A stretch of 39,737 nt of DNA from Bacillota bacterium (GTDB lineage: Bacteria > Bacillota > Clostridia > Peptostreptococcales > Anaerovoracaceae): NCBI GenBank assembly GCA_017397825.1, contig JAFQHT010000152.1, positions 1 to 39,737 of the forward strand. Reading direction: 5' to 3'. Position numbers and translations under genes: made by a program. Positions 3,380 through 38,682 of this stretch are shown here, piece after piece (positions within the stretch are counted from its first letter, which is position 1; every line of letters starts with the position of its first letter). The notes below the pieces were generated by a model that worked only from the letters and a program-made list of their open reading frames with translations, did no database searches and had not been told where the DNA came from.

Positions 3380-5413
3380 ATGAAGTACGCAAACGTAATT
3401 ATTGAAAACAAAAGCAGGCATACGGACAATTTTTTCACCTATCTGGCGGATGACAGCGTGCAGGTCGGAGATAAGGTTATGGTGCCTTTCGGCCCTAAGG
3501 ACAGGGAAAAAGAAGGTTTTGTTTTTGGGTTTGCGGATGAGCCGGATTGTCCGGCTGACAAGTTGAAATCAATAGTCAGGGTCTGCCAGGAGCAGTCCCT
3601 GACTGAAGAAATAATCAGCACTGCAGGCTGGATGAAGCAGCGTTACGCAATTAAATATTATGATGCTGTAAAGTGTTTCATCGCAGCAGGTAAACCTGCT
3701 AAAGAAGGCAGGGAAAAAGAACCCTATAAGGGCATCAAGGGTAATTATACCGTACCGGAAGCACTGACCGGAGAGCAGACAGCGGCAGTTGAAAAAATCT
3801 GCGGGGCCATCGACAGTGGCCGTCAGGAAAATTTCCTTATTCACGGTGTAACCGCCAGCGGTAAAACTCAGGTGTACATGGAGGCCATCGACAGATGCCT
3901 TGAGCTTGGGCGCACAGCAATCATGCTGGTACCTGAAATATCTCTGACCAGCCAGATTATAGAGCGCTTTGCCGGCAGGTTCGGCAAGGAGCAGATTGCG
4001 GTGATGCATAGCCGCCTTACGCCCAGGGAAAGATATGACGAGTGGCAGAGAATCAGAAGCGGCAGGGCGAAGATTGTAATCGGGGCCCGCATGGGTGTTT
4101 TTGCACCGCTTGAAAACATCGGCATTATCGTCATGGACGAGGAGCATGAGGCCACATACAAGGCTGATATGACACCGAAGTACGATACAGTAGAAGTCGC
4201 CCTGAAGCGCCTGAAATATTATAACGGCGTTCTGGTGTTGGGCAGTGCTACACCGTCTGTCACATCATATCAGCGGTGCCATGAAGGAATTTATACGCTG
4301 ATAGAGCTTAAAGAAAGATATAACAAAACACCTCTTCCTAAGGTTCATATCGCAGACATGCGTGAAGAACTGAGAGAGGGGAACAATACAATTTTCAGCC
4401 GTTACCTGTTTGGGGCAATGAAACAGGCCCTGGAAAAAGGTCAGCAGGTTATACTGCTGCAGAACCGGAGAGGTTATTCAAACTTTGTGTCCTGCAGAGA
4501 GTGCGGCAAAGTAATGAAATGTCCTGAATGCGGCATTTCACTCACATATCATAAATCCGGCGACAATATGGTCTGCCATTACTGCGGCCGAAGCTTTCCT
4601 GTACCAAAGACCTGCCCTGAATGTAGCAGCCGGTATGTGAAATTTTTCGGAATAGGCACGGAACAGGTAGAAGAAGCTGTGAAAGAGTATTTTCCTGATG
4701 CTGTTGTCGGACGTCTTGATCTTGATTCAGTGAAAAAACGCACAGATCTTGATAAGATTCTTAAGGCTTTTGCCGATAAAAAAACCGATATTCTGGTTGG
4801 AACGCAGCTGGTGGCCAAAGGCCTGGATTTTGACAATGTGGGCGTGGTCGGCGTAATTGCTGCAGACGTGACACTTAACATTCCGGACTACCGCTCAGCA
4901 GAAAGAACTTTCCAGCTGGTAACACAGGTTGCAGGACGTGCAGGCCGCGGCGGAGAGCAGGGTCTGGTGGTTGTGCAGACTTATGAACCGCAGAATTATG
5001 CAATCAGAAGTGCAGCGAACCATGATTATCAGTCGTTTTTCAGTGAGGAAACAGGACTGAGACAGTTCATGGATTATCCTCCTTTCGGGGATATTATCAT
5101 GGTAAACTTTACATCTGAAGATGAAACCGTGGCCATGGCCAGCGCAGAGCGGTGCAAAGTATACATGGAAAGAGCCCTGAAACAGGCCGCATCAGAAGGG
5201 TGCAAAGAGGCAGGCGAAGGAAAAGTCCTTTCTCCTAAAATCTCCGGCCATTTCAGAGGTGAAGGAAGTTTCAGGTACTATATAATTGTAAAGTGCCCGA
5301 AAGGACAACGGAGCCGCTATGTGTTCTATTTAGACAATTTCAGCAGAATACTGCTTAAAGAAAAAACAGACTGCGTCGTGAATATCGACGTGAACCCGTA
5401 TAGTTTTATATAA
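3380..5413 (+). CDS. priA: Primosomal protein N' (replication restart helicase PriA)
   Basis: A 3'-to-5' superfamily 2 helicase that recognises stalled forks and D-loops and reloads the replicative helicase. The N-terminal 3'-end-binding domain is at about 1-105. Walker A is GVTASGKT (156-163), DEEH is at 253-256, and GSATPS (288-293) is motif III. Eight cysteines in four pairs (C372/C375, C381/C384, C399/C402, C412/C415) form the two zinc sites; VGTQLVAKGLDF and QVAGRAGR are motifs V and VI. At 677 residues it is at the short end of the family (about 680-830). AAGGAGCAGC precedes ATG 3380. def follows 17 nt later, the usual clostridial order. Confidence 0.97.
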   Translation: MKYANVIIENKSRHTDNFFTYLADDSVQVGDKVMVPFGPKDREKEGFVFGFADEPDCPADKLKSIVRVCQEQSLTEEIISTAGWMKQRYAIKYYDAVKCFIAAGKPAKEGREKEPYKGIKGNYTVPEALTGEQTAAVEKICGAIDSGRQENFLIHGVTASGKTQVYMEAIDRCLELGRTAIMLVPEISLTSQIIERFAGRFGKEQIAVMHSRLTPRERYDEWQRIRSGRAKIVIGARMGVFAPLENIGIIVMDEEHEATYKADMTPKYDTVEVALKRLKYYNGVLVLGSATPSVTSYQRCHEGIYTLIELKERYNKTPLPKVHIADMREELREGNNTIFSRYLFGAMKQALEKGQQVILLQNRRGYSNFVSCRECGKVMKCPECGISLTYHKSGDNMVCHYCGRSFPVPKTCPECSSRYVKFFGIGTEQVEEAVKEYFPDAVVGRLDLDSVKKRTDLDKILKAFADKKTDILVGTQLVAKGLDFDNVGVVGVIAADVTLNIPDYRSAERTFQLVTQVAGRAGRGGEQGLVVVQTYEPQNYAIRSAANHDYQSFFSEETGLRQFMDYPPFGDIIMVNFTSEDETVAMASAERCKVYMERALKQAASEGCKEAGEGKVLSPKISGHFRGEGSFRYYIIVKCPKGQRSRYVFYLDNFSRILLKEKTDCVVNIDVNPYSFI

Positions 5414-5430
5414 AAATCGGAGGAATTATT

Positions 5431-5916
5431 ATGGCAATCAGAAACGTTGTAGTAGAAGGCGACGAAATTTTAAGAAAAAAATGCAGAGAAGTTACTGAAG
5501 TAAATGATCGTATCAGAATGACCATGCAGGATATGCTGGAAACCATGAGAGATGCCATGGGTGTTGGTATTGCAGCTCCTCAGGTTGGTATTATGAGAAG
5601 AATGTTCATCGCTGAACCTGAACCAGACAGAGTATATTTTATGATCAACCCTGTGATTTTAGAGCAGAGCGGAAGCCAGATTGACAGCGAAGGCTGCCTC
5701 AGCGTTCCCGGCATGATGGGTGATGTGGAAAGACCTGACTACATTAAGATTGAAGCTCTTGACCTTGATGGCAACAAGCAGGTTTACGAATTCTACGATT
5801 GTGATGCAAGAGTAATGTGCCACGAATACGACCACCTGGACGGTATTCTTTACACAGATAAAGCAACAAACATCAGAGAAGCAGTTTATGAAGAAGACGA
5901 AGAGGATTTTGAATAA
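5431..5916 (+). CDS. def: Peptide deformylase
   Basis: Removes the formyl group from the N-terminal formyl-methionine of nascent proteins at the ribosome exit. All three metal-site motifs are present: GVGIAAPQ (44-51), EGCLS (87-91, with metal ligand C89) and HEYDH (131-135, ligands H131 and H135, catalytic E132). 161 residues is normal for the short type; the acidic tail EEDEEDFE is unremarkable. AGGAGG-like GGAGGAATT precedes ATG 5431. Its stop shares one base with the start of fmt, so translation of the two is probably coupled, which suits enzymes that add and remove the same formyl group. Confidence 0.97.
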   Translation: MAIRNVVVEGDEILRKKCREVTEVNDRIRMTMQDMLETMRDAMGVGIAAPQVGIMRRMFIAEPEPDRVYFMINPVILEQSGSQIDSEGCLSVPGMMGDVERPDYIKIEALDLDGNKQVYEFYDCDARVMCHEYDHLDGILYTDKATNIREAVYEEDEEDFE

Positions 5917-6845
5917 TGAAAACAGTTTTTATGGGAACTCCTGATTTCTCTGTGCCTGTACTTCAGGCAATGGTTGAAGCAGGACATCAGGTAGGTTATG
6001 TGGTTACTCAGCCGGATAAGGCCAAGGACCGCGGTAAAAAAATTCAGTATACACCGGTAAAGGAAAAAGCTCTTGAGCACGGAATAGAAGTACTTCAGCC
6101 GGAAAGAGTCCGTGGGAACGAAGAATTTTTTGAAATCATGAAGGCTTATGCCCCTGACATTATCGTAGTAGTTGCTTATGGTCAGATTCTCCCTAAGGAA
6201 ATCCTGGAACTTCCCAAGTATGGCTGCGTAAATGTACATGCATCGCTTCTTCCTAAACTCCGCGGTGCAGCACCTATCCAGTACTCCATCGTCAGCGGTG
6301 AAAAGGAAACGGGTGTTACAATCATGCAGATGGGCGAGGGACTTGATACAGGCGACATGCTCATCAAAGATTCTGTGGAAATCGGCACTATGAACTACAG
6401 CCAGCTTCACGACTGCCTTTGTGAAATGGGCGCAAAACTCCTTGTAAAGGCGCTGGAACTTATTGAAGCAGGTCAGATTACGCCTGAACCTCAGGATGAC
6501 AACCTTTCTTCATACGCAAAGATGATTTCAAAGGCAGACGGCAAACTTGACTTTACCAAGAGTCCGGAAGAACTGGAAAGACTCATCAGAGGTTTTGACC
6601 CATGGCCGGGTGCTTTCTGCCAGTACGGAGATATCGTTATGAAGTTCTGGAAGGCTCAGCCTCTGGAAGAAACAAACGATGCAGCAGTAGGTACTATTCT
6701 TGAAGCAGGTGACGAAGGAATCAAAGTCGCATGCGGCGGCAGAGCGCTTCTGGTAACTGAAATTCAGGTACCAGGCAAAAAACGTGTAAACGTAAAAGAT
6801 TATCTCAGGGGAAATAAGATAGAAAAAGGGACAGTTTTGCAATAA
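5916..6845 (+). CDS. fmt: Methionyl-tRNA formyltransferase
   Basis: Formylates initiator Met-tRNA from 10-formyltetrahydrofolate. The N-terminal Rossmann-like catalytic domain carries MGTPDF (6-11), the catalytic NVHASLLP with N107 and H109, RGAAPIQ, and D144 in GLDTGD. A C-terminal OB-like tRNA-binding domain runs from about residue 205. 309 residues compares with about 315 in E. coli. The start overlaps the def stop by one base. The last three codons and stop (V-L-Q-TAA, 6834-6845) fall exactly on the left arm of the palindrome at 6834-7060, so the element may have supplied a new C-terminus. Confidence 0.97.
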   Translation: MKTVFMGTPDFSVPVLQAMVEAGHQVGYVVTQPDKAKDRGKKIQYTPVKEKALEHGIEVLQPERVRGNEEFFEIMKAYAPDIIVVVAYGQILPKEILELPKYGCVNVHASLLPKLRGAAPIQYSIVSGEKETGVTIMQMGEGLDTGDMLIKDSVEIGTMNYSQLHDCLCEMGAKLLVKALELIEAGQITPEPQDDNLSSYAKMISKADGKLDFTKSPEELERLIRGFDPWPGAFCQYGDIVMKFWKAQPLEETNDAAVGTILEAGDEGIKVACGGRALLVTEIQVPGKKRVNVKDYLRGNKIEKGTVLQ

Positions 6846-7060
6846 GTAAAATTTATTTCTAATGGGAATTACCTTGCTGATTGACCTCGCTGCTCATACT
6901 AAGACCGGTCGCGTACTTTGGGTAAATTTGAAAACGCGCCCTACGGGCTTGAACGGTTCAAATTTACAGCCAAAGTACTTTGCTCCCTCAAGTCTTGTAT
7001 GAAGCCACGCTCAGTCAAAGGCAAGTCCATTCCCAATAGAATAAATTTTAATTGTAAAAC
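6834..7060. repeat. 227-nt imperfect palindrome (fold-back element, MITE-like or structured RNA)
   Basis: The two halves are reverse complements with small bulges. Paired blocks, outside to inside: 6834-6843/7051-7060 (one G-T), 6847-6857/7040-7050, 6863-6869/7029-7035, 6873-6877/7021-7025, 6881-6885/7014-7018, 6894-6899/6997-7002, 6901-6905/6992-6996, 6913-6921/6970-6978, 6922-6932/6957-6967, and an apical GCCC-TAC-GGGC at 6938-6948. That is over 70 pairs. There is no coding frame and no clear T-run. The outer arm encodes the end of fmt. No second copy or target-site duplication is visible. It may be a MITE, an RNase III-processed mRNA structure or a non-coding RNA; the sequence alone does not decide. 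Confidence 0.85.
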
Positions 7061-7066
7061 TTTTAA

Positions 7067-7083
7067 GAAAGAATAATTCTTTC
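7067..7083. promoter_or_regulatory. Compact 8-bp palindrome
   Basis: GAAAGAAT (7067-7074) and ATTCTTTC (7076-7083) are perfect reverse complements separated by one base. The spacing is too tight for a hairpin loop but typical of a dimeric repressor site. It lies 31 nt before the small ORF at 7114. No promoter hexamers are clear around it, so an operator role is only a suggestion. Confidence 0.3.
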
Positions 7084-7113
7084 AGAGGTTTTGAACGATT
7101 TCCGCAGGAGTAG

Positions 7114-7299
7114 ATGAAACAGCCAATTAAGCGGCAAATATGCGCAGCTAAGAGTACGGCACTGTTTGAGCGATCCAAAATTGTAAAGGCGAGTTTGCCG
7201 GACTCTCTGCAAATTGAGCCGTGTATTGCGGTTGTTTCCTGCGACGAGGACTTAGTGAAAAAGCTGCTGAAAGATATTATTCTTAAAAGTTTACAATAA
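7114..7299 (+). CDS. Small hypothetical protein (61 aa), possible gene remnant
   Basis: A 61-codon frame with a good ribosome-binding site (GCAGGAG, 5 nt before ATG) and a stop 15 nt before the Zn-peptidase start. The protein is basic at the N-terminus and ends with IEPCIAVVSCDEDLVKKLLKD and a short tail; no signal peptide or membrane segment. In many Clostridia a DUF116 gene lies between fmt and the YugP-type peptidase gene, and from memory the stretch around IAVVSCDEDLV resembles the ACERDL region of DUF116. It could therefore be a remnant joined to new sequence when the adjacent palindrome inserted. It may equally be an unrelated small protein or not translated. Confidence 0.4.
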   Translation: MKQPIKRQICAAKSTALFERSKIVKASLPDSLQIEPCIAVVSCDEDLVKKLLKDIILKSLQ

Positions 7300-7314
7300 A
7301 ACGGAGGTTATGAA

Positions 7315-8016
7315 ATGTTTTGGTATGATGCAACCTATGTCATCCTGATTCCGGCAATTATTTTTACATTTATTGCGCAGGGTAAGGTGACATCTAATTT
7401 CAACAGATTTTCAAAAGTAAGAAACAGAAGAGGGCTTACAGGTTATCAGGCAGCAAGAATGATGCTCGATGCCAACGGTCTCAGAGATGTTCAGATTGAA
7501 CAGGTAAGAGGCAGTCTGACCGACCACTACGATCCGAGAAGCAGGGTTCTCAGACTTTCAGAGACAGTTTACGGCGTGGAATCTGTGGCAGCAATCAGTG
7601 TTGCCTGCCATGAAGTGGGTCATGCAATCCAGCACGCACAGAGCTACGGACCGCTTAAGGTAAGAAATTCAATTGTGCCTGTAGTAAATCTGGCTTCCAG
7701 TCTCAGCTGGCCAATGGCAATCGTCGGGATTATACTGCTGGGAAGTGGTGCGCTTATAGGGGACACACTTTTCAATATCGGTGTAATTGCAATGCTTGCA
7801 GTTATTTTCTTCCACACAGTTACTCTTCCTGTGGAATATAATGCAAGCCGCAGAGCCAAAGACCAGATGGAGGAACTGGGCATTATTGTTGATGGTGAAG
7901 AAGCCAGGGGTGCGCGTAAAGTTCTCAGTGCAGCTGCAATGACTTATGTGGCAGCACTTGCAACCGCAATTGCAAACCTTTTAAGAATTCTGGCAATCAG
8001 AGGAAACAGAGATTAA
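7315..8016 (+). CDS. Membrane zinc metallopeptidase, YugP family (PF04298)
   Basis: A 233-residue integral membrane protein with an N-terminal hydrophobic helix (about 5-22, FWYDATYVILIPAIIF) and the zinc motif CHEVGHAIQHA (HEXXH at about 100-104), followed by hydrophobic helices at about 125-170 and near the C-terminus. This is the architecture of the YugP neutral zinc metallopeptidases, whose natural substrates I do not know to be defined. The conserved VEYNASRRA follows the second membrane block. ACGGAGG precedes ATG 7315. The stop overlaps the rsmB start by one base, an arrangement widely conserved in Clostridia. Confidence 0.9.
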   Translation: MFWYDATYVILIPAIIFTFIAQGKVTSNFNRFSKVRNRRGLTGYQAARMMLDANGLRDVQIEQVRGSLTDHYDPRSRVLRLSETVYGVESVAAISVACHEVGHAIQHAQSYGPLKVRNSIVPVVNLASSLSWPMAIVGIILLGSGALIGDTLFNIGVIAMLAVIFFHTVTLPVEYNASRRAKDQMEELGIIVDGEEARGARKVLSAAAMTYVAALATAIANLLRILAIRGNRD

Positions 8017-32822: not shown

Positions 32823-34235
32823 ATGAAACTAGGCTACGATTTGACAATTGAACAAACCCAGAAACTGACAATGACTCCCGAACTGATTCAGGCAATCCAG
32901 ATTCTGCAGTTTAATTCGCAGGAGCTGGAAGCTTTTGTGCAGGACGAGCTTATGCAGAATCCTGTGCTGGAGTACGATGGCAGTGAGCCCAAAAAAGAAA
33001 GTGAAGTTTCCAAAACAGAAACTCTTGAAAAAAAAGAATCTGAGGAAGCTGATTTTGACCTGCGTGAAAAAGTAAAGGAAGCCGAATACGACGATATCAG
33101 TTATAAACAGTGGGAATACAACAAGGATAAGGACGAAACATCTTTTGAACAGTTTGTCAGCAGGGATGAAACTCTCGAAGACTCGCTGCTTCTTCAGCTG
33201 ACGTTCTCCAATCTCCGCGGAACAGAACTGAAAATCGGTCGTTATATAGTTGAAGCGATAGATGACAATGGTTATCTTACTGTTGATATTCCGCAGGTTG
33301 CCAAGCTTTTCAAAGTATATGAAAGCGTAGTTGAGGGTGTACTGGATGTTATCCAGACTTTTGAGCCAAGCGGCGTAGGGGCGAGAACTCTTGAAGAGTG
33401 TCTCATAATACAGCTGGCAGCAAAAGGTCTTCTGGAAGACTCAGTTGAATACATAATTTACAATCATCTTCAGGATCTTGGAGAAAACAAACTGAATAAA
33501 GTTTCCAAAGCCACAGGCCTTACAGTTGAACAGGTTCAGATGGTTGCAGACCTTATAAGAACGCTGGAACCTAAACCAGGCAGGAAGTTTTCTTCAGGGG
33601 ATACTATCAAGTATATGGTACCTGATGTAATTGTTGAAAAAGTTGAAGATACATATCAGGTTGTTACCAACGAAGGCACAATACCTCGCCTTATGGTCAG
33701 CCCTTATTATATGAATCTGGCCAAGCAGTCACCTAACGACGAAGAACTTTCAAAATATCTGAATGACAGATATAATGCAGCAATCTGGCTTATCAAGAGC
33801 ATAGAGCAGCGTAAGCAGACTATATACAATGTTGTTTCTTCTGTAATCGAACATCAGAAGGATTTCCTGGATAATGGTCCTAAGTATCTGAAAACACTTA
33901 CACTTAAACAGGTGGCAGAAGATCTTAATGTTCATGAATCTACTGTCAGCAGGTCTATCAACGGTAAGTATATGCAGACACCAAGAGGAGTGTTTGAAAT
34001 CAAGTATTTCTTTTCAAGCGGCGTTGTGGACAGCAGCGGTGAGGGTATGTCTTCCAACAGTATAAAGACTTTCATAAAAGAAATTATTGACAGCGAAGAT
34101 CCTAAGAAACCTTACAGTGACCAGGATATGGTTGAGATACTCAGCCGTAAAGGTATTGAGATTTCAAGGCGTACAGTTGCTAAGTACAGAGAAGGTATGA
34201 ATATCCTTTCTTCATCAAAGAGAAGAAGATATTAG
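32823..34235 (+). CDS. rpoN: RNA polymerase sigma-54 factor
   Basis: Alternative sigma factor that recognises -24/-12 promoters and needs AAA+ enhancer-binding activators. Region I (1-50) is rich in Gln/Leu (QTQKLTMTPELIQAIQILQ), followed by an acidic linker, core-binding region, the helix-turn-helix LTLKQVAEDLNVHESTVSRS and the RpoN box SRRTVAKYRE near the C-terminus. 470 residues is normal. GAGGTGA precedes ATG 32823. It lies just upstream of the gap-pgk-tpi cluster, where many Firmicutes have rpoN and/or cggR; no cggR gene is present. No activator or clear -24/-12 promoter is visible in the window. Confidence 0.96.
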   Translation: MKLGYDLTIEQTQKLTMTPELIQAIQILQFNSQELEAFVQDELMQNPVLEYDGSEPKKESEVSKTETLEKKESEEADFDLREKVKEAEYDDISYKQWEYNKDKDETSFEQFVSRDETLEDSLLLQLTFSNLRGTELKIGRYIVEAIDDNGYLTVDIPQVAKLFKVYESVVEGVLDVIQTFEPSGVGARTLEECLIIQLAAKGLLEDSVEYIIYNHLQDLGENKLNKVSKATGLTVEQVQMVADLIRTLEPKPGRKFSSGDTIKYMVPDVIVEKVEDTYQVVTNEGTIPRLMVSPYYMNLAKQSPNDEELSKYLNDRYNAAIWLIKSIEQRKQTIYNVVSSVIEHQKDFLDNGPKYLKTLTLKQVAEDLNVHESTVSRSINGKYMQTPRGVFEIKYFFSSGVVDSSGEGMSSNSIKTFIKEIIDSEDPKKPYSDQDMVEILSRKGIEISRRTVAKYREGMNILSSSKRRRY

Positions 34236-34301: not shown

Positions 34302-35318
34302 ATGGCGATTAAAGTTGGCATCAGTGGTTTTGGTAGAATTGGCAGAGTTGTTATCCGTGCAGCAATGGACATGCCTGAAATTGAAATAGCAGGTATTAAT
34401 GTAAGAAATGCAGATCTTGAATATCTGGAATACATGCTCAGATATGACTCAACTTTTGGCAGATTCCCTAAGGAATTAGGTCGTTATGAAAACGGTCTGA
34501 TTATTAATGGTAAAAAAGTTCCGGTATACAGCGAATCTGAAGCAATCAATATTCCTTGGGCTGAATGCGGCGTTGAATACGTTGTAGAAGCTACAGGCGC
34601 ATATGTTACAACAGAAAAGTCTATGGACCACATTAAAGCAGGTGCTAAAAAAGTTATTATTTCTGCTCCTGCAAAGGACAAGGAAACTCCTACATTTGTA
34701 TATGGTGTAAACCACAATGAATACACTACAGATATGAACGTAGTTTCCAACGCATCCTGTACTACAAACTGCCTTGCACCTTTAGCAAAGGTTATCGAAG
34801 ACAATTTCGGAATCAAGGAAGGTTTAATGTCCACAATCCATGCAGCAACAGCTAAGCAGAAAGTAGTTGACGCACGTTCCATGAAGGACTGGAGAACAGG
34901 AAGATCCGTATTTGGTAACGTTATTCCATCAACAACAGGTGCTGCAAAGGCAGTTGGTCTTGTAATCCCTTCACTTCAGGGCAAACTTACAGGTATTTCT
35001 TACAGAGTTCCTACTGCAAACGTTTCTGTAATCGACCTTAACGTAGTGCTTGAAAAACCTGCTACATATCAGGAACTTTGCGCTAAGATCAAAGAAGCAT
35101 CTGAAACTTACATGAAGGGTATTCTTGAATATGTTGATGATGAAGTGGTATCCGGAGACTTTATCGGTGACCCTTGCACATCCATCTTCGACGCAAGAGA
35201 AACTATCGAATTAAATGACCACTTCTTCAAGCTGATTGCATATTATGACAACGAATTCGGCTATTCCAGCAAGATTCTTGAATTAATAAAACACATGCAC
35301 AGCGTAGATAATAAATAA
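34302..35318 (+). CDS. gap: Glyceraldehyde-3-phosphate dehydrogenase, E. coli GapA-like, altered cofactor site (gap1)
   Basis: First of three GAPDH genes. 338 residues with catalytic C153 ([12 protein letters not shown]) and H180 (STIHAATAKQ), and the KDWRTGR and STTGAAKAVG segments that resemble E. coli GapA more than the two neighbours. The residue ending the second strand, an Asp (IND) in NAD-specific enzymes, is V34 followed by R35 (GINVRNADLEY); the S-loop reads VDARSMKDW where E. coli has DGPSHKDW. The first glycine loop is GISGFGRIG rather than GINGFGRIG. Loss of this Asp is seen in NADP-using GAPDHs such as B. subtilis GapB, so NADP use is likely but inferred. TAGGAGGAG precedes ATG 34302; a hairpin follows the gene. 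Confidence 0.95.
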   Translation: MAIKVGISGFGRIGRVVIRAAMDMPEIEIAGINVRNADLEYLEYMLRYDSTFGRFPKELGRYENGLIINGKKVPVYSESEAINIPWAECGVEYVVEATGAYVTTEKSMDHIKAGAKKVIISAPAKDKETPTFVYGVNHNEYTTDMNVVSNASCTTNCLAPLAKVIEDNFGIKEGLMSTIHAATAKQKVVDARSMKDWRTGRSVFGNVIPSTTGAAKAVGLVIPSLQGKLTGISYRVPTANVSVIDLNVVLEKPATYQELCAKIKEASETYMKGILEYVDDEVVSGDFIGDPCTSIFDARETIELNDHFFKLIAYYDNEFGYSSKILELIKHMHSVDNK

Positions 35319-35332
35319 TATAAATGTTACTG

Positions 35333-35363
35333 TTTGCCTTTGCCGGTTTCCGGCAAAGGCAAA
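35333..35363 (+). repeat. Perfect 14-bp hairpin between gap1 and gap2
   Basis: TTTGCCTTTGCCGG (35333-35346) pairs with CCGGCAAAGGCAAA (35350-35363) around a TTT loop. No T-run follows (GTTATCCCC), so it is not a standard terminator. It probably stabilises or punctuates the mRNA between the two GAPDH cistrons. Confidence 0.8.
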
Positions 35364-35410
35364 GTTATCCCCGCGGATGCATTATAAATAACCAGAAGGG
35401 AGAGATTATA

Positions 35411-36424
35411 TTGAAGAAAGTAGGAATTAACGGATTCGGAAGAATCGGAAGAAATGTTCTTAAAATTGCTCTTGAAAAATATTCAGATCAGTACGAAATC
35501 GTTGCAATCAATGACCTGACTACAGCATCAACATTGGCGCATCTTCTTAAATATGACAGCTGTTTCGGCAAATTTGACGGAGAAGTTGAAGCTGAAGAAG
35601 ATGCAATTATTGTAAACGGCAAGGAAATCAAAGTTTTTGCACAGCCAGACCCTGCTCAGATTCCGTGGGATACATTAGGTGTGGATCTGGTAATTGAAGC
35701 AACAGGTGTGTTCAATTCAGACGAAGGCGGAGCCAAACATTTTGAGCGTGGTGTGAAAAAGGTGGTTTTCACCGCATCAGCAAAAGGTGAAAAAGTTACA
35801 ACTATTGTTATGGGTGCCAACGAAGAAATCTACAATCCTGAAACGGACCACTTTATTTCCAATGCATCATGCACAACAAACTGTCTGGCACCATTTGTCA
35901 AAGTAATGGACAATGAGTTCGGAATCAGACGTGGACTTATGACTACAATCCATTCATACACCAATGACCAGAATATTCTGGACCTGCCTCACAAAGACCT
36001 GAGAAGAGCAAGAGCTGCAGCACTTTCAATGATTCCTACAACTACAGGTGCAGCAAAGGCAGTTGCACAGGTTCTTCCTCAGCTGGAAGGTAAACTTAAC
36101 GGTATGGCAATCAGAGTACCGACTCCGACTGTTTCCATTGCTGATCTGGTTCTTGAACTTGAAAAGAAAGTTACTAAAGAGGAAATAAATGCCAAGCTTA
36201 AAGAAGCGGCGGAAACTTATCTGAAAGGTATTCTCGACTATACAGAAGAACCTCTTGTTTCCATCGATTTCAAGGGCTGCGATGCATCTTCCACAATAGA
36301 CGGTCTTTCTACAATGGTTATGGAAGACGATATGGTAAAAGTACTTTCCTGGTATGATAACGAGTGGGGATATTCCAACAGAGTTGCGGACCTTGTTGGT
36401 TATATTGTTGAAAAAGGTTTTTAA
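35411..36424 (+). CDS. gap: Glyceraldehyde-3-phosphate dehydrogenase, Bacillus-like (gap2)
   Basis: Second GAPDH, 337 residues. [10 protein letters not shown] at the start, [18 protein letters not shown] with the NAD-specific D35, catalytic C154 (NASCTTNC) and H181 (TTIHSYTNDQ), then LDLPHKDLRRARAAA with the L-P pair typical of NAD-specific enzymes, and WYDNEWGYSNRV at the end. Best guess is the main glycolytic enzyme. TTG 35411 is the start: AAGGGAGA lies about 8 nt upstream and the protein begins at KKVGINGF. The frame is open to 35324 but would translate the hairpin region. pgk follows 38 nt later. Confidence 0.95.
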   Translation: MKKVGINGFGRIGRNVLKIALEKYSDQYEIVAINDLTTASTLAHLLKYDSCFGKFDGEVEAEEDAIIVNGKEIKVFAQPDPAQIPWDTLGVDLVIEATGVFNSDEGGAKHFERGVKKVVFTASAKGEKVTTIVMGANEEIYNPETDHFISNASCTTNCLAPFVKVMDNEFGIRRGLMTTIHSYTNDQNILDLPHKDLRRARAAALSMIPTTTGAAKAVAQVLPQLEGKLNGMAIRVPTPTVSIADLVLELEKKVTKEEINAKLKEAAETYLKGILDYTEEPLVSIDFKGCDASSTIDGLSTMVMEDDMVKVLSWYDNEWGYSNRVADLVGYIVEKGF

Positions 36425-37668: not shown

Positions 37669-38682
37669 ATGAAGGTTGCAATTAATGGATTTGGCAGAAT
37701 CGGAAGATTGGCTTTCAGAAAAATTTTTGATGACCCTGCTCTTGAAGTAGTGGCAATAAATGACCTGACAGAGCCAAAGATGCTGGCTCATCTGTTAAAA
37801 TACGACTCTGTACAGGGTGGCTATCATGGACATGAAGTAAAGTGGGACGAATATTCTCTTTTAGTAGATGATAAAGATATTCCTATTTTTTCAGAAGCAG
37901 ATGCAAGCAAATTGCCTTGGGGACAGCTTGATGTGGATGTAGTGCTGGAATGTACAGGTTTCTATACGTCTAAAGCCAAGGCACAGGCTCATATTGATGC
38001 AGGCGCAAAAAAAGTAATTATTTCAGCCCCTGCAGGAAATGACCTGCCTACAATTGTTTATGGTGTAAATCATGAAACTCTGACAGCAGATGATAATATT
38101 ATCTCCGGGGCTTCCTGCACCACAAACTGTCTTGCGCCTATGGCAAAGGCTCTCAATGAGTACAGAGAACTCCGTACAGGCTTCATGACAACAATACACG
38201 CATACACCGGCGACCAGATGATTCTTGACGGACCGCATAAAAAAGGAGATCTGAGAAGAGCAAGAGCAGGTGCAATAAACATTGTACCTAACTCAACAGG
38301 AGCTGCCAAGGCTATCGGTCTGGTAATTCCTGAACTTGACGGTAAGCTCATCGGCTCAGCACAGAGAGTTCCTGTGGCATCAGGTTCCATCACAATTCTG
38401 GACGCAACACTCAAAGACATGACTGACACAGTTTCCGTTGAAGGAATTAATGAGGCTATGAAAGCAGCTGCAAATGAATCCTTCGGATACACTGAAGAAG
38501 AACTTGTTTCATCCGATATTATCGGTATGAGCTACGGCTCACTTTTTGATGCAACACAGACTCTGGCACAGCAGTGCGGTACCAATATTTTTGAGGTAAG
38601 AGTAGTTGCATGGTATGATAATGAAATGAGCTATACCTGTCAGTTAGTAAGAACCCTTAAATATCTGGAGAGATTTATATGA
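37669..38682 (+). CDS. gap: Glyceraldehyde-3-phosphate dehydrogenase, Staphylococcus/Lactobacillales-like (gap3)
   Basis: Third GAPDH, 337 residues, of another lineage: [40 protein letters not shown] with NAD-type D32, [12 protein letters not shown] with catalytic C150, [10 protein letters not shown] with H177, [15 protein letters not shown] (a one-residue longer S-loop than gap2), [19 protein letters not shown] and [16 protein letters not shown]. It resembles S. aureus GapA more than its two neighbours. TCGGAGG precedes ATG 37669. Its stop overlaps the tpiA start (ATGA), so the two are coupled. Confidence 0.95.

Follow-up and report, generated by a model that had tools for sequence, protein, structure and literature searches.

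Small palindromic repeats, MITEs among them, are usually defined by conserved ends and by a transposase. At integron attC sites, a hairpin with a conserved foot and a variable tip is recognised by its shape rather than by the sequence of its stem. In the Bacillus cereus group, the repeats bcr1 to bcr3 are described as MITE-like and often lie in UTRs or between the genes of an operon, and a conserved secondary structure is ascribed to bcr10 and bcr18 (PMC3446304).

The fmt palindrome belongs to a larger repeat with two hairpins

The window, by which we mean the whole stretch of 39,737 nucleotides that was analysed, carries the methionyl-tRNA formyltransferase gene fmt at positions 5916 to 6845 of the plus strand, as judged from its ORF and from fetched relatives, and the last codons of this gene form the foot of a long stem. 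The original prediction had placed here a 227-base palindrome with more than 70 pairs and a GC-rich apex, whose left arm was thought to supply the end of fmt. Folding bore this out. Positions 6834 to 7060 form a single rod (rod A) of 87 pairs, three of them wobble pairs, at −85.9 kcal/mol, with a short GC-rich tip, bulges inside the stem and a foot that extends into the terminal fmt codons, such that GTT TTG CAA TAA of fmt lies within the left arm. The interior, likewise predicted to be richer in GC than the flanks, has a GC content of 0.48 in the core (6870 to 7023) and 0.40 across the entire palindrome. Including small flanks brings the energy to −88.1, compared with a mean of −51.5 for shuffled sequences (z = −7.8), and none of 200 shuffles was as good. 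By raw energy, rod A has equals in the window, given that among 1,581 segments of 227 nt several near position 3,500 and a few elsewhere match or fall below the value at 6826; rod A is therefore exceptional by virtue of its shuffle z-score and its relatives. Elsewhere in the window, three different glyceraldehyde-3-phosphate dehydrogenase-like genes (34302 to 35318, 35324 to 36424 and 37669 to 38682) occupy one cluster, which also has pgk- and tpiA-like genes and directly follows an rpoN-like gene (32823 to 34235), all named by eye from their translations.

The predicted boundaries of the palindrome were correct to within a base but cover only half of the unit, because a related rod continues to about position 7287. 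This second conserved block, revealed just downstream of A by aligning the flanks of A copies, itself folds as a rod (rod B; 7062 to 7287, plus strand), with 74 pairs and −78.7 for positions 7062 to 7300; the ORF listing includes a 61-residue ORF within it. A covariance model built from 25 B copies (R1) scores the core of B (7087 to 7264, plus strand) at 171.8 bits, this copy being included in the model, and matches the core of A on the opposite, minus strand at 19.6 bits (E = 4.5e-5 in 561 bases). With filters off, R1 matched the A copy in all 11 other A loci at 13.5 to 36.0 bits in a test that left out a half hairpin in G005. The margin is thin, as the next match, below all rods, scored 12.7 bits and the weakest A copy had an E-value of 0.17. 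Because R1 matches A on the opposite strand here and also scores A in each of the 11 other loci, the two rods must be related and in inverted orientation; they lie on opposite strands in all 10 tested A loci that have a B match (L038 is without one). Thus, the palindrome is one half of a two-hairpin repeat, with A on the minus and B on the plus strand. The apical motif of B comprises CTGTTTGAGC, a variable loop and GCGAGTTTG (7162 to 7197, plus strand); that of A, ACCGTTCAAGCCC..GGGCGCGTTTT (6931 to 6957, minus strand), has diverged from it, as read from the letters and the A alignment. Rod B is found alone more often than together with A.

The middle segment that separates the two rods of a composite is complementary to its outer flank on either side. 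In 10 of 10 composites, the strongest duplexes with the two flanks draw on overlapping parts of this segment, 52 to 84 nt long, lengths to which weakly paired ends contribute. A composite's own middle segment outperformed swapped ones on the left in 7 of 10 cases and on the right in 9 of 10, where some of the better swaps may be orthologous copies, and the margin is small for the window itself. There, the letters give a left copy (T) of AGTTTTGCAATAA at 6833 to 6845 on the plus strand, which includes the last fmt codons and stop and was aligned with the fmt ends of L076 to L078; an inverted copy (T') between the rods, ATTGTAAAACT, at 7051 to 7061 on the minus strand; and a right copy of T, AGTTTACAATAA, at 7288 to 7299 on the plus strand. 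The right copy is a weak candidate for a target duplication, the window not being among the copies that beat swapped controls (see below). At L044, the corresponding pieces are GGAGGCAGAAGATG, CATCTTTTGCCTCC and GGAGGCAAAAGATG, and all three change in concert in the orthologue L041. Target duplication combined with arm-to-arm template-switch copying would produce this T - A - T' - B - T layout, as might selection for two competing stems.

Shape is conserved while the feet are locus specific

In an alignment of 25 B copies, which represents part of the 36 B places later found by the model and omits weaker or partial matches, double changes that preserve pairing are found at 37 of 52 pairs, and 95.6% of cells are paired. 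None of 500 shuffles reached the covariation score, and controls in which the alignment was slid collapsed. Rod A is more uniform, with double changes at 15 of 45 pairs, 98.1% of cells paired and again no shuffle out of 500 scoring as high; its alignment left out the half hairpin G005:C29. When pair types were simply counted, a cruder measure, 11 (B) and 1 (A) of 500 shuffles did as well. Because the copies are related by descent, the double-change counts are not counts of independent events. Among orthologous copies, as judged by flank similarity, close pairs show mostly single changes, many of them pair-breaking (four broken and two kept in the basal stems of L046 and L047), and divergent pairs show double changes (10 kept as pairs and five broken in the cores of L058 and L054, the basal alignments being unreliable).

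Two unpaired elements are nearly invariant, namely the tip letters CTGTYTGAGC / GCGAGTTTG and a lower internal loop, TTCCGCAG / CGAGGACTAAG. Outside the core, sequence varies by locus. The basal arms of B pair best with their own partner in 22 of 25 copies (L060, L061 and L063 being the exceptions), with a mean duplex energy of −35.4 for own versus −14.9 for swapped arms. For A, the own partner is best in 7 of 12 copies in a test that starts further out, and the window's own A is not one of these seven. Across copies in the genus there are no conserved terminal inverted repeats; the apical half is common and the feet are locus specific, unlike in G057, G085 and G119, where copies largely share their ends. 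What evolution keeps is the folded shape rather than the letters of the ends.

Two further readings of these alignments were set aside. G.U exceeds A.C in the helices (34 versus 13 and 12 versus 6), but this excess is concentrated in a few pairs of related copies and is not decisive as proof of an RNA. The tip motif was also considered as a k-turn; by eye, the adjoining pairs do not fit the canonical form.

Rods are dispersed in the genus and beyond it

BLAST located a second A copy in the genome from which the window comes, with 93% identity restricted to the inner 140 bases (query 52 to 190). Rod A occupies 13 places in six of six genus genomes, its own included, and among 60 relatives it was found only in the five congeners, the remaining matches being short and with E-values of 0.0037 or worse. 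Rod B occupies 36 places in the six genus genomes, one of them a remnant, and B-type rods are present, by rough E-values, in 31 of 197 family genomes and 21 of 92 genera. Across the order, 31 of 393 genomes carry the exact tip motif by itself, with a maximum of 64 copies per genome; across the phylum, 16 of 398 do so, with a maximum of 38. A reversed-pattern control gave three matches and one match, respectively, among the matches listed. The original prediction had offered a MITE, with many dispersed copies sharing their ends, or a large structured RNA with covarying stems. Both signatures are present; the copies are indeed dispersed and covary, but what they share is the apical half, and their feet differ within the genus.

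When one or two loci per motif-positive genome were fetched and folded, the tip motif was mostly found to cap long rods with other bodies, other Firmicutes included. By eye, no long rod lies under the motif at five loci (L208, L216, L217, L258 and L266), which look like chance or broken copies. One other body, with long GC-rich feet (CTTCTGGCGGCTTAGGGAGGTTTGGC), was seen under the same tip motif at L267 and L268 in a different family of the phylum (G432 and G675), and a further one at L261, L262, L263 and L275 is nearly alike across three genomes of one genus (G489, G450 and G556).

Only one of 78 fetched fmt loci has a rod (L076, which is the G001 record), and this closest named record is a genome from a goat-rectum metagenome. 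Rfam 15 yielded no match for the whole window and 12 loci at the gathering score or for positions 6780 to 7340 at E ≤ 10, and positions 6780 to 7120 had no match in plasmids. Carriage by viruses was considered on the basis of 31 exact matches in viral contigs and was dropped, as a rough estimate for chance alone is of the same order.

Empty sites and target duplication

In G001, two close genes are separated at L053 by a 278-bp insert that carries rod B and brings along a basal stem of its own as well as a small side palindrome. The site is empty in G000, G002, G003, G004 and G005, where the matching flanks either adjoin or are separated by no more than 24 bases. At L053 itself, no flank repeat beyond a few bases is evident. 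The small palindrome, GAAATTCGC..GCGAATTT, was also seen by eye beside the rod at another site in G004 (L059), as if it were part of the mobile unit.

Composites have empty sites as well. The one at L041/L044 is absent from G005, G000 and G001, and is unreadable in G004 because its two flanks are on different contigs. The sequence GGAGGTCTG occurs once at the empty G005 site and on both sides of the composite in the filled G002 site, and comparison of L041 with the empty G005 site gives a target duplication of 9 bp (BLAST overlap 11). A second composite (L039/L043) is absent from G003, G005 and G001. At L052, the matching flanks are 76 bases apart without a rod in G002 and 11 to 18 kb apart in three relatives, so this site is also a point of rearrangement.

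Flank repeats were compared with swapped controls in a test that dropped copies too near the end of a locus and that gave fewer positives with narrower search spans. Within the genus, the repeats beat all swapped controls in 4 of 10 composites and in 1 of 16 solitary B copies, the latter showing no general excess. The corresponding values are 6 of 10 in G085, 4 of 7 in G119 (including one repeat of just 12 nt), 5 of 9 in G057 and 0 of 10 in G432, with 4 of 32 at the remaining loci, where L227 and L377 represent a single place; two of the G057 copies and two of those at the remaining loci are strong. In G057, G085 and G119, the direct flanking copies are 20 to 37 nt long, often form a hairpin themselves and differ from locus to locus, and this holds for several copies. 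On both sides of several rods of related type (among L345 to L354 in G085, L377 to L383 in G119 and L184 to L191 in G057), the same terminator-like hairpin was seen as a direct repeat; examples are GCATCTGTTTTAGAGGCAGATGC (L377/L227) and AAAAGGCACCTATTCAAGGTACCTTT (L190).

Persistence and decay between species

The same fmt–B junction is found in G001, where B is 96% identical and A is reduced to a small hairpin made from its two feet. A recent insertion with few changes, as had been suggested, does not agree with this, as fmt and B are common to this close relative, which keeps only a remnant of A. Absence of the palindrome from the same junction in a close strain, which the original prediction had counted against itself, does occur in G001 but looks like loss, since B and the right foot of A remain. 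The proposal that the palindrome stands in place of another gene also failed: an alignment inspected by eye places the same downstream gene (7315 to 8016, plus strand; 233 residues) after fmt in G001 as well as in L077 and L078, which are more distant and in which it follows directly. The small AT hairpin at fmt in G001 had further suggested insertion into the loop of a pre-existing terminator. This is not supported, because the half stem kept by G001 lacks its partner, consistent with loss of A, and because the empty L053 sites contain neither basal arm.

Partial copies occur elsewhere. G005 has a collapsed remnant at the L037/L040 site and a half hairpin at another, and G001 retains half of the L058 copy. 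Orthologous copies at matching sites have core identities of 0.71 to 0.98 in nine pairs, and the core is more alike than both flanks in seven of eight same-orientation pairs, some flank values being lowered by gaps. Cores that outlast their flanks suggest an in-place function rather than decaying inserts. The pair L048/L049 (loci L037/L040) was excluded from the flank comparison because its composite lies in opposite orientations. Relative to the same flanking genes, the composite at L037 3238 to 3639 in G004 is opposite to that at L040 678 to 1088 in G002, which reflects either inversion in place or two separate entries.

A probable mobile hairpin repeat and its alternatives

We consider it probable that rods A and B make up a non-coding, non-autonomous mobile hairpin repeat of a MITE- or bcr1-like kind, in which the apical half is fixed and the ends are free. 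Its folding, dispersal and insertion and the conservation of its shape are established by computation. According to this model, A and B would have inserted at the end of fmt before the species split from its closest relative found (G001). The working form would be the folded single strand, either a DNA hairpin or a transcript, and a putative enzyme acting in trans would read the conserved loops at the apex and lower inside the rod; of the long stem, only pairing would be required, which would leave its sequence free. After insertion, pairing may have been kept by selection, by hairpin-templated copying from arm to arm, or by both, and such copying would also account for the T - A - T' - B - T layout with one middle segment complementary to both flanks. 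Palindrome-type deletions would later remove parts of the rods. Several observations stand against a mobile repeat: the ends vary between copies, unusual for a transposon; only one composite in the genus has a clear target duplication; orthologous cores are more alike than their flanks; and the long-Y1 loci fetched from rod-positive genomes yielded no linked enzyme.

More speculative, and in our estimation doubtful, is an extension to a class of shape-coded mobile elements spanning the Firmicutes. Such elements would combine the invariant tip and lower loop with any stem that pairs, would exist singly or as inverted A-B composites, and would enter gene junctions or terminators with duplication of the target; composites would leave an inverted target copy between the rods and thereby two competing stems. 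The duplicated targets on this reading would be those of 20 to 37 nt in G085, G119 and G057 and, in one genus composite, a ribosome-binding site.

Pairing might instead arise without selection. In quasipalindrome correction, template switching during replication copies one arm of a palindrome into the other, so palindromes would look as if they covaried and the stem would grow into its flanks. The locus-specific, self-pairing basal stems, the middle segment that pairs with both flanks, the joint differences of the three T copies between L041 and L044 and the scarcity of wobble pairs are all consistent with this process. However, correction should erase asymmetric loops, yet those of the lower stem and tip are nearly invariant; many double changes lie in the upper stems, distant from the flanks; and dispersal is left unexplained. 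We regard this account as possible, though not the likely one.

A rival that is live, even if unlikely, gives the rods a role in place within mRNA. On this view, the rods would be a functional structured RNA dispersed by duplication, for example a hairpin within operons that is sensitive to RNase III or stabilises the message. The strong covariation and the nearly invariant unpaired motifs agree with it, as does the G.U excess, which is expected if the motif-sense strand folds, and the copies lie between close genes, with 0 of 25 between convergent ones. Nevertheless, orientation relative to genes is mixed (9 sense, 12 antisense and 4 divergent among 25 copies, with orthologues included and neighbours taken from ORF length only), which speaks against a strand-specific role in place, and the two rods of a composite face opposite ways. 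The alignments also contain no conserved outer flank, Rfam provides no match, and the empty sites demonstrate insertion.

Still less credible is a REP/BIME-like repeat moved by a RAYT, a Y1 transposase, even though the rods are hairpin repeats placed between genes. We searched 22 chosen genomes with Y1_Tnp (13 with the exact tip motif, 8 without it and G009, which is positive by R1 only), and long Y1 proteins of about 250 to 320 residues looked associated with rods, being present in 7 of 14 rod-positive versus 1 of 8 rod-negative genomes. Yet at none of the 23 long-Y1 loci from rod-positive genomes is there a rod within about 2.5 kb, some of these loci ending at contig ends and a broken, short Y1 match in G107 being excluded from the count. 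Furthermore, the long class is missing from 7 of the 14 rod-positive genomes, G000 among them. In G000, one Y1 gene of the IS200 type, interrupted by an internal stop, is about 2.4 kb away from a rod (L340), hardly a case of linkage. Fuzzy motif matches at two long-Y1 loci (L328 and L333) do not look like rods. A REP/RAYT partnership was therefore dropped, and no mobilising enzyme was found among the Y1 transposases of the 22 genomes and 23 long-Y1 loci.

Finally, although the palindrome is located at a gene end, a chance palindrome or an oversized fmt terminator is excluded for practical purposes by the shuffle z-score of −7.8 and by homologous copies at other places in its own genome and in congeners, and the downstream gene has the same direction and a long T-run after the palindrome is absent by eye.

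Comparison with known systems

The two-hairpin family, scattered through Clostridia and their relatives, is apparently an undescribed kind of small mobile DNA; no description of it was found in the literature covered, which consisted mainly of abstracts and lay mostly outside subscription journals (PMC2267715, PMC3446304). With free ends and a fixed tip, rods at matching sites in different species can have stems that differ in sequence and still pair, and they therefore amount to natural replicate experiments on the persistence, arm-to-arm copying and deletion of long bacterial palindromes. They also point to a putative enzyme that reads a hairpin tip, and for annotation they account for large hairpins that lie, unassigned, between the genes of operons in many Clostridia.

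The rods may work as attC sites do, through shape and not stem sequence, but the arrangement is reversed, because in rods it is the tip that is conserved and the foot that varies. Rods resemble MITEs in being short, non-coding, palindromic and dispersed, in having empty sites and, in one composite, in having a target duplication; they differ in that their ends vary by locus within the genus while the centre is conserved, and no parent transposon was found in a search that covered Y1 genes. REP/BIME elements with RAYTs are likewise extragenic palindromes in many copies, but REPs measure 20 to 40 bp and bear GTAG or CGTC tags (PMC3733652), whereas rods measure about 225 to 280 nt and are not beside the tested Y1 genes. 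The Clostridium repeats Clop-1, Clot-1 and Clot-3 are stem-loops like the rods and are 74 to 93 bp long (PMC2267715).

Nearest in idea to the rods are the bcr-type repeats, here compared by description only. The tip motif, the inverted two-rod composite and the locus-specific basal stem are features of the rods that the accessible description of bcr1 to bcr18 does not include, and both groups are intergenic, non-coding repeats (PMC3446304).
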